Positions 47,246 through 52,611 of a stretch of 64,000 nucleotides of DNA are shown piece after piece. The notes under the pieces were generated by a model that saw only the letters and a program-made list of their open reading frames with translations, had not been told where the DNA came from and did no database searches. Made by a program: the position numbers and the translations under genes. Each line of letters starts with the position of its first letter. The first letter of the stretch is position 1. The stretch lies in the NCBI RefSeq assembly GCF_900141705.1, contig NZ_FQYM01000007.1, positions 1 to 64,000 on the forward strand, written 5' to 3'. Origin of the DNA: Fibrobacter sp. UWP2. Its GTDB lineage: Bacteria; Fibrobacterota; Fibrobacteria; Fibrobacterales; Fibrobacteraceae.

Positions 47246-47922
47246 ACAAAGTACGGGAAAATAAATTCTTCGGCAAGCTTGTCTAGCCGGGCGAGCACGA
47301 CCTTTTTGCAGGCCATGTCAGACTGCTCGTAAATATGGCGGAGGGTGCTGAGCGAGAAGTTCTGCAAGCGCTTGCGCGACGTAGGGAGGTGCGCAATGTG
47401 CCAGCCCTCGGGGCGAATCTTGCCACGGCCAGGTATAAACACGCGTTCAAAGCCAAACGACTCGCCCTTCTCCATCCGGCGGGTCAAAAACTCATGGAAC
47501 TTGACGAACATGCCGGTACATTCGGCGGGCGTGAGCTGCACCTCGTATCCTTCGGGGCAAGCGGCGCCATCGACCACGTCAATGTCGGTACCCAAATGGT
47601 GGCGGCTTGCCCCGGGGAGCGCCGACCACGTGAGGATGGCATACATCAGTTCTTCTTCGTCCTGCGGGCGTTCCATGGGTTCGCCATGCTCGTCAAGGAG
47701 CTTAAGTTCCCCGCGGGCTTTGCGGTTCCAAATGGAGAGTTGCTTTTCAAAAGGGCGGTAAGCCGATTCAATGCGCAGTTCAAAGCCTTCCGCCTTGGCT
47801 GCATTATTTAGTTTGTCTACAAAAGGAACGATGTCGGCATCGACGAAATAACCCGGCTGCACCTCGACCAAATTTGGTTGGCCCAAACCATAGGGCAAAA
47901 ACTCTTCGGAGACAAAACTCAT
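47242..47922 (-). CDS. M15B D-Ala-D-Ala carboxypeptidase (VanY-like)
   Basis: A 226-aa zinc peptidase. 'IESAYRPFEKQLSIWNRKA', then 'SRHHLGTDIDVVD' (HxxGxxxD zinc motif) and 'EGWHIAH' (third ligand) are typical of VanY/LdcB. No signal peptide is visible with the start at 47922, so it may act in the cytoplasm on recycled peptides, in keeping with the mpaA neighbour. The start is set by GGGAGGG 7 nt upstream and overlaps the ruvC stop (ATGA). Confidence 0.87.
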   Translation of the reverse strand: MSFVSEEFLPYGLGQPNLVEVQPGYFVDADIVPFVDKLNNAAKAEGFELRIESAYRPFEKQLSIWNRKARGELKLLDEHGEPMERPQDEEELMYAILTWSALPGASRHHLGTDIDVVDGAACPEGYEVQLTPAECTGMFVKFHEFLTRRMEKGESFGFERVFIPGRGKIRPEGWHIAHLPTSRKRLQNFSLSTLRHIYEQSDMACKKVVLARLDKLAEEFIFPYFV

Positions 47923-48488
47923 TGGATAGTCCCTCCCATCTTTTCGATTAGGTCCTTCCACTGCTGCACCGTGGCCTTCTTCTTTTTGGTTTTAGCCTTC
48001 CCCTTGAGGGCAACCGTCAATGGCGCCGGCGTGCAGTGGGTAAAGGCTATGGCCAATGCGTCAGAAGCGTCCAATGGGAGGTCTGAGGGTTCAATCCCCA
48101 AACGGGTATAGACCATGTTCGCCACCTGCTCCTTTGAGGCGGAGCCATCCCCGGTCACCGACTGCTTGACGACCTTGGGCGGGTACTCCATAAAGGACAT
48201 TCCCCGCTTGCGGCACGCCACGAGCACAGCCCCGCGAACATGACCCAGCACCAGGGCGCTCTTGGCGTTTTTGGCAAAGAACACGCCTTCCATGGCAAGC
48301 GCCTCGGGGCGGTAGCGTTCTAAAAGTTTTTCCAGCTCCCCAACAATGTGGAGCAAGCGGTCTTCCAAGGCGTTGGTCGCCGGGGCGTGCAAAGTCCCGT
48401 ATTCCAGCACCTGCAACGAGCCGCCGGAATTGTCCAAAAACGCGTACCCCGTCGTGATGGAACCGGGGTCAATTCCTAGAATAACCAT
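47919..48488 (-). CDS. ruvC: Holliday junction resolvase RuvC
   Basis: Endonuclease that cuts Holliday junctions; 189 aa from the conserved start 'MVILGIDPGSITTGYA'. Catalytic acids are in 'GIDPGS', 'AMEGVFFAKN' and 'DASDALAIA'. The start at 48488 is preferred: TATAAT (48495-48500) lies 6 nt before it, and no Shine-Dalgarno is present, which suggests a leaderless message. The in-frame ATG at 48518 would lie upstream of that box. First gene of ruvC-vanY-mpaA. Confidence 0.94.
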   Translation of the reverse strand: MVILGIDPGSITTGYAFLDNSGGSLQVLEYGTLHAPATNALEDRLLHIVGELEKLLERYRPEALAMEGVFFAKNAKSALVLGHVRGAVLVACRKRGMSFMEYPPKVVKQSVTGDGSASKEQVANMVYTRLGIEPSDLPLDASDALAIAFTHCTPAPLTVALKGKAKTKKKKATVQQWKDLIEKMGGTIQ

Positions 48489-48596
48489 ATTCCAATTATA
48501 ACTACTTTTCTTGACCAAAAATTGGTTTTATTCCAGTTTCTTTATTAGATTTTCATTTGGAAGGCTCTTAAAAGAGATTGCCTTCTGGAGGCCCTT

Positions 48597-50483
48597 ATGC
48601 TAATCGATCAGGAACATGCTGGAATTGTGAGAACCAAAACCCACCCACGCCAGTTGGGGATTCCCCTGAGCCGTTGGGGTCGAAACCTTATCGCTTGCTG
48701 CCCCTTTCACGCCCCCGAAGAGACGTCGCTGTTTTTCTACGACGCCCTGGGTTACTGGCGTTACCGTTGCCTCCAGTGCGGTAGCGAGGGCGACCTGATC
48801 GAGTTTGTGATGCGCAGCCGCTTTAACGGCATGGATGAGCCGCAGGCGCGTGCCGAAGCCACCGAGTTTTTGGGCGCACAGGAAGCCGAACAGCAACAGG
48901 ATTCCTTCAAGGATGAGCACCCCTGGATCAAGGAAATTGGCGGTGAAAAGTCCAAGGTCCTCGAGAGCTTTGTGCGCTACTGCCACTGGGCGGCATGCCG
49001 CAGCCCTTCCTCAGCCGAATACCTCTCCAGCCGCGGTTGGAGCATTGGCCAGGCACAGCTCTACGGCATTGGCTACTACAGCGGCGACCCCGAACCGTTC
49101 GTGAGCTACTGCATGCTCTCGGGCATCGAACGCCACCAAATCAGTTTTTACCTGGATAACCTCGAAGCCTATCACGAGCCGCGCATCACCATCCCAGCCC
49201 GCAACTCCAAGGGGCTCATCCACTCGGTCTACGGCCGCCTTATGGAAGACGAAGGCAAGGGCCACCCCTACATTTCTTACGCCTCGGGTCCGGGGGACAT
49301 TCCGTTCAACATCCAGCCCGAAAACGACAAGCCCATTATTGTTGAAGGGTTCTTTGACGCCCTCACGGCCGACCTCGCGGGTATCCCGGGAGTGGTTTCG
49401 ACCATGTACCAGGAACTTTCGCTGAGCCACCTCTACAAGCTCAAGGCCTGCGGCGCCGATTCCGTGACGCTCATCTTGCGGCGCGAAGCCAACCGCCGCG
49501 AACAGGAATACCGCATCCAGCGCTACCTCAAGATGGCCGAAGAACTGAATTTGAGGTTCAAGTCCATCGTACTCCCCAAGGACGAGACCATTGACCAGGT
49601 GCTCCGCAAGAACGGCGCCGACCAGCTGATTACACTTATCGACCAAACCGAAGAAGACACGGTGCACACGCATCGACGTTCCATGCTGCTGCAAGACATC
49701 AAGGAGAACTTTGACACCGCCATGGCGTGCCCCCCCGATGTGAGCGTGGGTTATTCACTGAACACCTTCCCAAAACTCACCAAAGAGATTGACGGTATCC
49801 AGTCTGGCTGTTTCTACGTGTCCTCGAACCCGTTCGGCCTCAAGACGACCCTCCTTTCGAGCCTCGCCCTAGACCTGCTCCAGAGCAACCCGAAGCTCAA
49901 AATCATCTACATCGCGCTCGAGACACCGCGCCGCCAGATTTTTGACCGCCTGGTCGCCATGATGATTGGCGAATCGGTGCTGACCGTGCGCAAGCAGAAC
50001 GAATCCGACCAAATCAACCAAAAGATTTTGGAAGCGACCCGCGAGCTGATGGGCTACGTGCGCAACAACCGCCTCGAAATCTGGGAAGATCAGCCGGCGT
50101 TCAACAACACGGAACTGCTAGACATTTTGAAGGGCGAGCAAAAGGACCACCCGGACCTGATCGTCATCATTGACGGCATTGACCACCTCAAGATTTCGGA
50201 CCGTCCGGACCTCTCGGACATTCACGAACGTCGCTCCTCCGTGATGCTTGACCTGTACAAGGCGCTCGACATCCCGCTGTTCCTCGGCGGCGAGCTCATC
50301 GATTCCGAGAACGGCCTTGTGGGGCCGCGCGCCTACCTCCGTGATTCCGACGCCATCTACTGGCTCGAATCCAAGGGCGGCAACCTGTTCTTGTCGGTCA
50401 ACTCCAAGCGTCTGGGTACAAACAACCTCTATAGAGGAACGCTCTCCATAGATCCGGAATCCAACAGGATGCAAGAAACCTAA
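48597..50483 (+). CDS. DnaG-zinc-finger / TOPRIM / DnaB-like protein with altered catalytic motifs
   Basis: A 628-aa protein laid out like a T7-gp4/Twinkle primase-helicase. CHC2 zinc finger: 'CPFH' and 'CLQCGSEGDLIEFV' (about residues 35-70). TOPRIM: 'IIVEGFFDAL' keeps the VEGxxD half, but the DxD half, expected as FDxDxAG, reads 'LILRREANRR'. RecA part: Walker A position reads 'SSNPFGLKTT' (GK replaced by LK), Walker B 'LIVIIDGIDHL' is normal, and 'GPRAYLRDSDAIYWLES' matches DnaB motif H4. Priming activity is unlikely; ATP binding uncertain. GGAGG ribosome site. Its stop overlaps the start of a glycosyltransferase (TAATG). Confidence 0.8.
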   Translation: MLIDQEHAGIVRTKTHPRQLGIPLSRWGRNLIACCPFHAPEETSLFFYDALGYWRYRCLQCGSEGDLIEFVMRSRFNGMDEPQARAEATEFLGAQEAEQQQDSFKDEHPWIKEIGGEKSKVLESFVRYCHWAACRSPSSAEYLSSRGWSIGQAQLYGIGYYSGDPEPFVSYCMLSGIERHQISFYLDNLEAYHEPRITIPARNSKGLIHSVYGRLMEDEGKGHPYISYASGPGDIPFNIQPENDKPIIVEGFFDALTADLAGIPGVVSTMYQELSLSHLYKLKACGADSVTLILRREANRREQEYRIQRYLKMAEELNLRFKSIVLPKDETIDQVLRKNGADQLITLIDQTEEDTVHTHRRSMLLQDIKENFDTAMACPPDVSVGYSLNTFPKLTKEIDGIQSGCFYVSSNPFGLKTTLLSSLALDLLQSNPKLKIIYIALETPRRQIFDRLVAMMIGESVLTVRKQNESDQINQKILEATRELMGYVRNNRLEIWEDQPAFNNTELLDILKGEQKDHPDLIVIIDGIDHLKISDRPDLSDIHERRSSVMLDLYKALDIPLFLGGELIDSENGLVGPRAYLRDSDAIYWLESKGGNLFLSVNSKRLGTNNLYRGTLSIDPESNRMQET

Positions 50484-51685
50484 TGCAAAACGGAACCAAG
50501 CCGTTCACCATCGTCGACTTCAACAACTTCTGGAGCCCATCCGGAGGTGGAGTCCGCCGTTACCACCTGCAAAAAATGGCGTTTTACGAAGCGGCCAGCT
50601 CCAAGGGCGAAAACGCGCTCTCGGTTTTTGTGATGCCCGACGGCAAGACCTTTACCGAACAAAAGAGCGAAAACCTCGTCATTGAGCACGTGGAAGCGTT
50701 CAAGTTCCCCGGTAACTGGGAATACCGCTTTATTTGGAAGCGCTCGCAGGTGGAGCCCGTGCTCGCCAAGTACCAGCCCGACATTATTGAAGTCGGCTCC
50801 CCGTACATTTTGCCGACGGTCGTGCGCCGCGCCGCCAAAAAAATCTCGCCCGCATCCAAGCTGGTGGGATTCTGGCACGCCGACTTCCCCGTGACTTACG
50901 TGGGTCGCCCCGTCGCCAAAAAAGTGGGGCCCGGCATAGGCACGTTCTGCCGCAAAAAGGCGTTCTGGTACGCCCGCAAAGAATTCAAGGGCTTCGACTG
51001 CATCCAGGCCTCTTCCAAGGAGGTCATGGCGCGCCTCAAAAAGAACAACCTCCCGGACCCGCGCTGGATCCCGCTCGGTTGCGACATTCAAATGTTCTCG
51101 CCCACCAAGCGCGACGAAGCCTTGGTGCAAGAGCTTAAGGCGGGCGACCCGGACCGCCTCACCATCTTTTTCCCGCACAGGCACTGCAACGAAAAAGGCA
51201 TGGACCTGGTCCTTGGCGCCTACGACATCCTGACCGAAAAGCTGGGACACGAACCCGCTATTGTGTTTGCGGGAACGGGGCCCTCGCTCCCGCAAGTACA
51301 GGAGGCGGTCGCCAAGCACCCGCACATGCGCTACATTGGCTTTGTGAATTCCATTGACGAAATGGCCCGCTACTACGCGAGCGTCGACCTGGGGCTTGCC
51401 CTCTCGGGCTGGGAGACCTTCGGACTCTCCATTCTCGAAAGCATGGCAAGCGGCAACGCCCAGGTGGGAGCCGCCGCCGGAGCCGCCTTTGAACACGTGA
51501 CCGAATCCAAGGCAGGGACAATCCTCGCCGAACGTACACCGCAGGCTCTCGCCAACGCCATTGTGGAACTTTACCATTCCGACATGCAGACCATGAAGCA
51601 GAACGCCCGCGCCTATGCCGAAAAATACAGCTGGGAAGACTGCTTTAAAAGACAACTGGATTTATACAAGAGTTTAGCAAAATGA
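50483..51685 (+). CDS. Glycosyltransferase family 4 protein
   Basis: A 400-aa GT-B enzyme. N-terminal 'SPSGGGVRRYHLQKM' is the acceptor-side glycine loop, and the C-terminal 'FPHRHCNEKGMDLVLGAY', 'GTGPSLPQV' and the nucleotide-sugar motif 'SGWETFGLSILESMASG' (ExFGxxxxE) are typical of GT4 mannosyl- or glucosyltransferases. The start overlaps the previous stop, and its end overlaps the next gene (ATGA). Sugar and acceptor unknown; a role in surface glycan or glycolipid synthesis is inferred. Confidence 0.9.
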   Translation: MQNGTKPFTIVDFNNFWSPSGGGVRRYHLQKMAFYEAASSKGENALSVFVMPDGKTFTEQKSENLVIEHVEAFKFPGNWEYRFIWKRSQVEPVLAKYQPDIIEVGSPYILPTVVRRAAKKISPASKLVGFWHADFPVTYVGRPVAKKVGPGIGTFCRKKAFWYARKEFKGFDCIQASSKEVMARLKKNNLPDPRWIPLGCDIQMFSPTKRDEALVQELKAGDPDRLTIFFPHRHCNEKGMDLVLGAYDILTEKLGHEPAIVFAGTGPSLPQVQEAVAKHPHMRYIGFVNSIDEMARYYASVDLGLALSGWETFGLSILESMASGNAQVGAAAGAAFEHVTESKAGTILAERTPQALANAIVELYHSDMQTMKQNARAYAEKYSWEDCFKRQLDLYKSLAK

Positions 51686-52611
51686 TTCCCAATCGCCTCA
51701 TCTTTATTTGGCTAGGCCCCAAGTTCCCGTGGAGCGGCGGTGTCGCCGTCCGTTCGGCATACAAAGTTCAACAGCCACAGTCCATTTGGCTTGTACACGA
51801 AGGACTAATGCAAGAAGGCGACGGTTGGGACCTCATCAAGGACATCCCCGGACTCGAGGTCATCCCCGTCCAGGACTCCCACTTTGAAGGCCTGGACGAT
51901 GACGGGCTTTGCCTAAAGCTGTTCAAGACACTCAAAGCGCCCGCCAGCCGAGCCAACCTGTTGCGTTTGGCACTTCTCTACAAATACGGCGGTGTTTACC
52001 TCGACACCGACGTCATTGTCGTAAAACCTTTCGACAACCTCATGCAGCAAAAGGGCTTTATTGGAGTCGAACCCGTAGCGCTTCCCGCCGACCTTTTCAG
52101 GAGCGTCAATCCCTTCCGTTGGATTTATTGCGGCCTCCAATTCGCCTTCCGCGAGTTCTGTGCGCGACTCCCCGGTGGGTACAGGTTGTTCCGCCTTGCC
52201 GAGAGAGGATTCTCTGCCGCGGTGAACAACGCCATCATAGGTTCCGAGCCCGGGAACCCCACCATCCGCAGCGCCTTTGAATTCATCAAGAAAATGCCCG
52301 AAGCGGAACGCCTCAAACGCTACCGCCTGGGGACGCGGCTCATGCAAAACGTCACGCACAACAAGAGCAGCGAATCCATGGTGGTCTTGCCGGCACGCTT
52401 TTTTTACCCCCTCGGCCCCGAAATCAGCGCGCACTGGTTTAAACCAAAGACCAGCAACAAGTTAGACGAGCTCATTTTAAAGGATACCTGCGTGGTGCAT
52501 TGGTACAACTCGGTCGAGGGGCGCTTCCTCCACACCAAGGTCTCGGCGGAGTGGGTCAAAGAGAACCCCACAACGGCTTTTAGCGAATTATCGAAAGAGT
52601 TCATAAATTAA
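51682..52611 (+). CDS. DXD-motif glycosyltransferase (GT32-like)
   Basis: A 309-aa protein starting 'MIPNRLIFIWLGPKFP', the usual opening of GT32/Gly_transf_sug enzymes, with 'ASRANLLRLALLYKYGGVYLDTDVIVVKPF' containing the DXD metal site (YLDTD). A C-terminal amphipathic region follows. Translationally coupled to the GT4 gene, so both probably act on the same glycan. Confidence 0.88.
   Translation: MIPNRLIFIWLGPKFPWSGGVAVRSAYKVQQPQSIWLVHEGLMQEGDGWDLIKDIPGLEVIPVQDSHFEGLDDDGLCLKLFKTLKAPASRANLLRLALLYKYGGVYLDTDVIVVKPFDNLMQQKGFIGVEPVALPADLFRSVNPFRWIYCGLQFAFREFCARLPGGYRLFRLAERGFSAAVNNAIIGSEPGNPTIRSAFEFIKKMPEAERLKRYRLGTRLMQNVTHNKSSESMVVLPARFFYPLGPEISAHWFKPKTSNKLDELILKDTCVVHWYNSVEGRFLHTKVSAEWVKENPTTAFSELSKEFIN

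Follow-up and report, generated by a model that had tools for sequence, protein, structure and literature searches.

Single cases are known of proteins related to replication enzymes that have lost catalysis, the TOPRIM domain of RecR being one example. Among the closest described systems to the protein considered here are the primase-helicases. In gp4 of phage T7, a zinc ribbon, a DnaG-type TOPRIM core, a linker helix and a DnaB-type RecA domain follow one another along the chain. Animal Twinkle has an active helicase, and its primase half, from which the zinc-binding and metal sites have been lost, is catalytically dead yet structurally kept; in the human protein, this N-terminal half has lost priming, binds DNA and stabilizes the oligomer or ring (PMC9860392).

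Here we describe the product of an open reading frame of 628 residues at positions 48597-50483 of the forward strand of the window (the whole stretch of Fibrobacter DNA that was analyzed, 64,000 nucleotides in length), with its ATG at 48597. The protein, which we name PHL (pseudo-primase-helicase), has the domains of T7 gp4 in the same order and matches it structurally over the full length, but it has lost the TOPRIM DxD, the primase lysines, the Walker A glycine, and the glutamine of motif H4, and it is encoded by a chromosomal core gene beside a glycosyltransferase rather than in a phage replication module. Unlike Twinkle, it is a bacterial protein found alongside DnaG and DnaB, its zinc ribbon is invariant, and its P-loop is altered. 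DnaG shares with PHL a zinc ribbon and an RNA-polymerase core, but PHL is without the catalytic acids and the lysines of the NTP site, and a RecA-like domain replaces the C-terminal helicase-binding domain. With DnaB, PHL has in common the C-terminal RecA-like fold, but the N-terminal domain of DnaB is absent and the P-loop glycine, the H4 glutamine, and the LRESG loop are changed. The glycosyltransferase partner most resembles GpgS, the GlcNAc-phosphatidylglycerol synthase of Pseudomonas aeruginosa (PMC12713373), but falls far below the cut-off of that family, and no gpgD or gpgF neighbors were seen. We found no description of PHL in the open-access literature, a scope beyond which most subscription papers lie, and a gp4-type protein that is a bacterial core gene and has both centers altered is, as far as we could find, new.

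Domain order and fold

A match to the CHC2 family above the Pfam cut-off (PF01807, 37.4 versus 24.9 bits, E 2.3e-9) identifies the zinc ribbon, residues 21-75, encoded at 48657-48821; matches to TOPRIM, DnaB_C, and DNAG_N lie below their cut-offs. Against PHROGs and NCBIfam, the first half of the protein matches DnaG or phage primases and the second half DnaB, and among viral models those of phage primase-helicases come nearest. The DnaG-type RNA-polymerase domain, including TOPRIM, spans residues 116-352 (48942-49652). Together with the zinc ribbon, it can be aligned over its full extent with DnaG of the same host (hhalign E 1.3e-15), and by VIA-align the primase core superimposes on Staphylococcus aureus DnaG 4edg with Z 21.7 and rmsd 3.0 over 247 aligned residues. 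A linker (residues 353-378, 49653-49730) joins the primase and helicase halves; it is modeled as a helix at residues 356-375, has low entropy and low dN, and is probably an oligomerization element. The DnaB-type RecA-like domain, residues 384-628 (49746-50480), has a profile match to DnaB (E 5e-6) and aligns with DnaB 4esv with Z 27.4 and rmsd 2.4 over 244 residues. All four segments lie on the forward strand.

Structure prediction had been proposed in an earlier reading of this locus made from the sequence alone (hereafter the sequence-only reading), and the outcome agrees with the assignment made there. The AlphaFold model, built from 33 orthologues, is a monomer with a mean pLDDT of 76 and a pTM of 0.44, in which the relative placement of the domains is unsure. 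A Foldseek search with this model placed Twinkle (7t8b, E 6e-16) on top and also matched T7 gp4 (5ikn and 1q57), in both cases over nearly the whole chain. The most divergent orthologue (G146), which has 35% identity and reads VPHIFD for VEGFFD, is predicted to fold with its helices and strands in an unchanged order (pLDDT 67). Since CHC2 ribbon, TOPRIM primase core, linker, and DnaB-type RecA domain are all matched by profile, hhalign, and structural comparison in a single chain, the descent of PHL from a primase-helicase of the T7 gp4/Twinkle type is firm.

Residues kept and lost in the primase half

Conservation was counted over 87 distinct orthologue sequences, which come mostly from one genus and from metagenome-assembled genomes (MAGs) and are not independent events. 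The CHC2 ribbon is the best-conserved segment of PHL. Its ligands C35, H38, C58, and C61 are present in 87 of 87 sequences and, with the Walker B aspartate, fall within the bottom 2% of variability in a diverse orthologue set, so the sequence-only reading was right to regard the zinc finger as kept.

The TOPRIM site presents a different picture, much of which had likewise been noticed. Alignment with DnaG places Arg-Arg-Glu (49479-49487, forward strand; the RRE of LRRE) where TOPRIM has Asp-Gly-Asp; most orthologues have R-R-E here, and none of the 87 has D-x-D. The other half of the motif had been described as kept, and VEGFFD is indeed present in the window's protein, with its aspartate (D254) invariant (87/87). 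The glutamate (E250), however, is found in 72 and replaced by Q, S, or P in the other 15, and its position lies at the 50th percentile of variability. The positions aligned with the NTP-site lysines of DnaG (K229 and K241 in Escherichia coli) are not lysine in the window's protein, and the segment around the second is shortened. With both the metal-binding acids and these lysines lost, priming chemistry is, as read from the alignments, gone throughout the orthologues.

The altered ATPase site of the helicase half

The sequence-only reading took the Gly-Lys of Walker A to be lost and motif H4 to be kept. The first of these claims is half correct and the second did not hold. The P-loop reads SSNPFGLKT (49821-49847, forward strand), with leucine for the seemingly essential glycine that precedes the lysine. 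At this position, the orthologues have L, F, D, Y, or H and never glycine (0/87), and its variability ranks at the 84th percentile within the diverse set, whereas Lys416 and Ser/Thr417 (threonine in the window) are each present in 86 of 87. The family alignment proposed in the earlier reading thus finds the loss of the TOPRIM DxD and that of the Walker A glycine in every orthologue. In motif H4, the SQLNR/AQLSR of DnaB aligns with GGELI in PHL; the glutamine is lost in all 87, with E, D, S, or N in its place. Walker B, which had been called intact, is so (Asp526, 50172-50174, forward strand, 87/87). Glu442 (49920-49922, forward strand), counterpart of the catalytic glutamate of DnaB, is E in 78, D in 8, and K in 1. 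In the KxR finger, Arg605 is kept in 78 of 87, and the lysine has become serine in 77 and leucine in 6.

Judged by its residues, then, the ATPase site is altered, not erased. As the Walker A lysine, the Ser/Thr, and the Walker B aspartate are held, and the catalytic glutamate is present in most, nucleotide binding may persist, and some ATPase activity is possible. The proposal that priming alone has been lost, as in animal Twinkle, and that PHL is still a functional helicase driven by ATP, with a working LKT P-loop, draws on the retention of Walker A Lys/Thr, Walker B Asp, catalytic Glu, and finger Arg in most orthologues and on the intact RecA-like fold. It has to contend with the replacement of the Walker A glycine in all 87, with the loss of the H4 glutamine and the KxR lysine, with genus g6 and others, in which the catalytic glutamate is aspartate and the finger arginine is asparagine, and with one orthologue in which the Walker A lysine itself is missing. 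We consider it improbable.

Distribution, inheritance, and selection

A whole-genome search found a full-length PHL orthologue in 97 of 168 genomes of the phylum, all of them Fibrobacteraceae: in every one of the 80 genomes from the window's genus, and in genera g3 and g5-g11, with identities of 35-92%. Named records include MAGs of Fibrobacter succinogenes, F. intestinalis ATCC 43854, and other Fibrobacteraceae. A 98th match (G039) was rejected as an unrelated primase with intact acids. A scan of 84,980 species for two short peptide patterns, which distant relatives in other phyla may escape, returned no PHL relative outside the family. The gene is single-copy per genome, one draft genome excepted. 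The exception, MAG G075, carries two copies of PHL with the glycosyltransferase (contigs C11 and C15; loci L079 and L109), 84% and 80% identical to the window, and may contain DNA from two species.

The 12 genomes of genus g4 are without PHL, and a profile search for a diverged copy in this genus and in the outgroups matched only DnaG. In the tree of the glycosyltransferase GT4, described below, the PHL-bearing genera g3 and g8 branch outside g4 (support 91/93); PHL was therefore probably present in the ancestor of the family, its absence from g4 being a later loss. No firm order for these branches comes from the rpoB tree.

The sequence-only reading had also held that the frame is intact, with a good ribosome site, and is not decaying. 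Conservation bears this out: the changes recur across the 87 orthologues, none of the listed orthologues has an internal stop codon or a frameshift, and comparison of the window's gene with each of seven Fibrobacter orthologues gives a pairwise dN/dS of 0.04-0.09, an approximate range in that several of the pairs approach saturation at synonymous sites. Among six neighboring genes, PHL has the smallest protein distance (0.33 versus 0.45 for RuvC). The loss of catalytic residues would suit a functionless relic in decay, but these selection data refute that explanation, to which we attach next to no credence. On the genome comparisons, PHL is a core, vertically inherited gene under strong purifying selection. 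The earlier description of a retained, probably inactive replication-type protein is borne out in that the TOPRIM changes are lineage-wide and under such selection, but it goes too far for the ATPase half, which has not been stripped.

An origin among mobile elements raises a further question, whether PHL is a replication protein domesticated from a phage or plasmid and serving as a decoy or dominant-negative against invading replicons. The architecture is typical of phage primase-helicases, and dead subunits mixing into foreign rings would poison them. Yet defense genes are patchy, and PHL is found throughout the genus, as a single copy passed on vertically; it has no defense neighbors, no match to a defense family beyond the zinc ribbon, and no related intact protein in viral contigs. 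A decoy role is thus very unlikely. For PHL as a defense gene more generally, the sole pointer was the resemblance of its zinc ribbon to DRT-associated primases, and the idea was dropped. That PHL is a phage or mobile-element gene still in play was also rejected, in view of its presence in 80 of 80 genomes of the genus, its shared neighborhood, the absence of a related protein from viral contigs, and a search of phages and plasmids that found only distant primases, with at most 63% query coverage.

Upstream region and gene neighborhood

A GGAGG ribosome binding site (48587-48591, forward strand) precedes the ATG by 5 nt, and a site of the GGAG/GAGG type is found in most relatives. When the upstream regions of 30 loci were aligned, one block alone proved to be conserved in most relatives: TTTATTAGATTT, at 48541-48552 on the forward strand, which has one exact match in the window; the remaining intergenic sequence is not conserved. 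It is probably the -10 region of a promoter or a Fibrobacter promoter element, which would give PHL a promoter of its own. A scan for sigma-70 promoters and terminators gave no excess over shuffled sequences, and a search for structured RNA in the region gave none.

The last base of the PHL stop codon, TAA, is also the first of the ATG that starts the following gene (TAATG), an overlap that had been correctly reported. This following gene (50483-51685, forward strand; PF13692/PF00534) encodes a GT4 glycosyltransferase, found directly downstream of PHL in all 72 named loci. Where the gap was measured (71 loci), it ranges from -4 to +23 nt, and in 45 of these loci the genes overlap. The best full-length NCBIfam relative of GT4 is NF053787 (GlcNAc-phosphatidylglycerol synthase), at 185.7 bits against a cut-off of 480, and GT4 is probably a phospholipid or glycolipid glycosyltransferase. 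From the arrangement of the genes, PHL and GT4 are predicted to be co-transcribed, and thereby co-expressed.

Coupling had originally been claimed to glycosyltransferases in the plural, which applies to GT4 but not to the third gene, a GT32-like sugar transferase with a DXD motif (51682-52611, forward strand; PF04488). This follows GT4 only in close relatives and is not conserved across the family, and a tie between GT32 and PHL was rejected. A GT4-GT32-like pair also occurs in two outgroup genomes from other families of the class (G153 and G161; L064 and L065); this pair may be older than that of PHL with GT4, although most Fibrobacter have lost GT32.

On the other side of PHL, neighbors vary, and no replication gene is constant. 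The divergent ruvC gene (47919-48488, reverse strand; TIGR00228 over cut-off) is kept in most relatives, but a functional tie to PHL was judged weak and set aside, as ruvC is not adjacent in the two most divergent orthologues and is displaced in another. In these two (G044 and G146), the block of ruvC, carboxypeptidase, and M14 genes is missing, and GT4 still stands next to PHL. In G146 (L033), a murA-like gene lies directly upstream of PHL in the same direction. At L093 and L129, the M14 peptidase gene lies on the strand opposite to that seen in every other relative, which suggests a local inversion.

Genus g4 (L057-L063) has GT4 preceded not by PHL but by an RNase H1-like gene whose product has a Cauli_VI (viroplasmin) N-terminal domain. 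A homologue of this gene sits elsewhere in the window's genome, so the arrangement in g4 looks like reshuffling. As GT4 is kept there without PHL, it must in that genus be independent of PHL. Rate covariation between PHL and GT4 was nothing special compared with that of other neighbors, and was uninformative as to a link. The persistence of GT4 alone and the lack of special covariation argue against strict dependence between the two proteins; direct contact between them is possible.

These observations bear on the proposal that PHL no longer uses DNA and is a protein-level regulator of GT4 or of envelope lipid synthesis, the ring-fold binding GT4 or a nucleotide signal and tuning GT4. GT4 is the sole neighbor held throughout, with its start overlapping or nearly touching the PHL stop, and replication genes provide no constant neighbor. 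DnaG-type TOPRIM cores, moreover, are targets of ppGpp. Against this, the metal- and nucleotide-binding residues of DnaG are gone in PHL, the best-kept segment is the zinc ribbon, a nucleic acid-binding module, and, as described above, GT4 survives without PHL in g4 and covaries with it in no special way. We regard this proposal as unlikely.

A possible role for PHL

The strong preservation of PHL and its constant adjacency to GT4, despite the lost chemistry, point to a new, non-catalytic job. That this is one of binding or regulating, as the sequence-only reading supposed, is plausible. The account that we put forward, with as much doubt as conviction, is that PHL is a domesticated pseudo-primase-helicase: a non-priming, probably non-translocating, nucleic acid-binding oligomer, co-expressed with a lipid-type GT4 and serving as a clamp, scaffold, or regulator. 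An enzyme of the gp4/Twinkle type has become a fixed chromosomal gene of the Fibrobacteraceae, beside a complete and ordinary DnaG/DnaB set. Single-stranded DNA or RNA would lie in the zinc ribbon and primase groove; a ring, assembled through the linker and RecA-like domain, may bind nucleotide without efficient turnover and would for that reason act as clamp, scaffold, or regulator rather than as motor. Human Twinkle provides the precedent, with the losses and retained functions of its N-terminal half outlined at the outset. If PHL is co-transcribed with GT4, the simplest reading would be that one and the same condition of growth or of the envelope calls for both proteins. Against this account stand the retention, for the most part, of the Walker A lysine, the Walker B aspartate, the catalytic glutamate (78/87), and the finger arginine (78/87), the presence of GT4 without PHL in g4, the unremarkable rate covariation with GT4, and the variety of the upstream neighbors.

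A bolder extension, and a long shot, is that PHL, a ring protein of replicative origin no longer engaged in priming or unwinding, senses the state of nucleic acid or nucleotide and couples it to membrane-glycolipid synthesis by GT4. If true, this would be a link from chromosome to envelope built from a retired primase-helicase. PHL can be looked upon as a natural separation-of-function mutant, one with which to ask, in a rumen fiber degrader, what the zinc ribbon, the primase groove, and the helicase ring do without catalysis, and its constant association with what is probably a lipid glycosyltransferase suggests a link between chromosome and envelope that can be put to the test.

Replication genes of the host and a third CHC2/TOPRIM protein

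The possibility that PHL replaces a missing part of the replisome or recombination machinery was rejected on inspection of the host genome. DnaG has intact motifs (VEGYFD and FDGDAAG), as does DnaB (ARPGVGKT, SLEM, AQLSR, and AKHRNG); RadA and RuvB are above their family cut-offs, and RuvC is also encoded. The genome contains, in addition, a third CHC2/TOPRIM protein, of 358 residues (L056:700-1776, reverse strand; G000 contig C1 near 101565). Its gene is divergent from a murB-like gene, its acids are apparently intact (CEGAVD and LDKDDAG), and it looks like a small primase of the mobile type.
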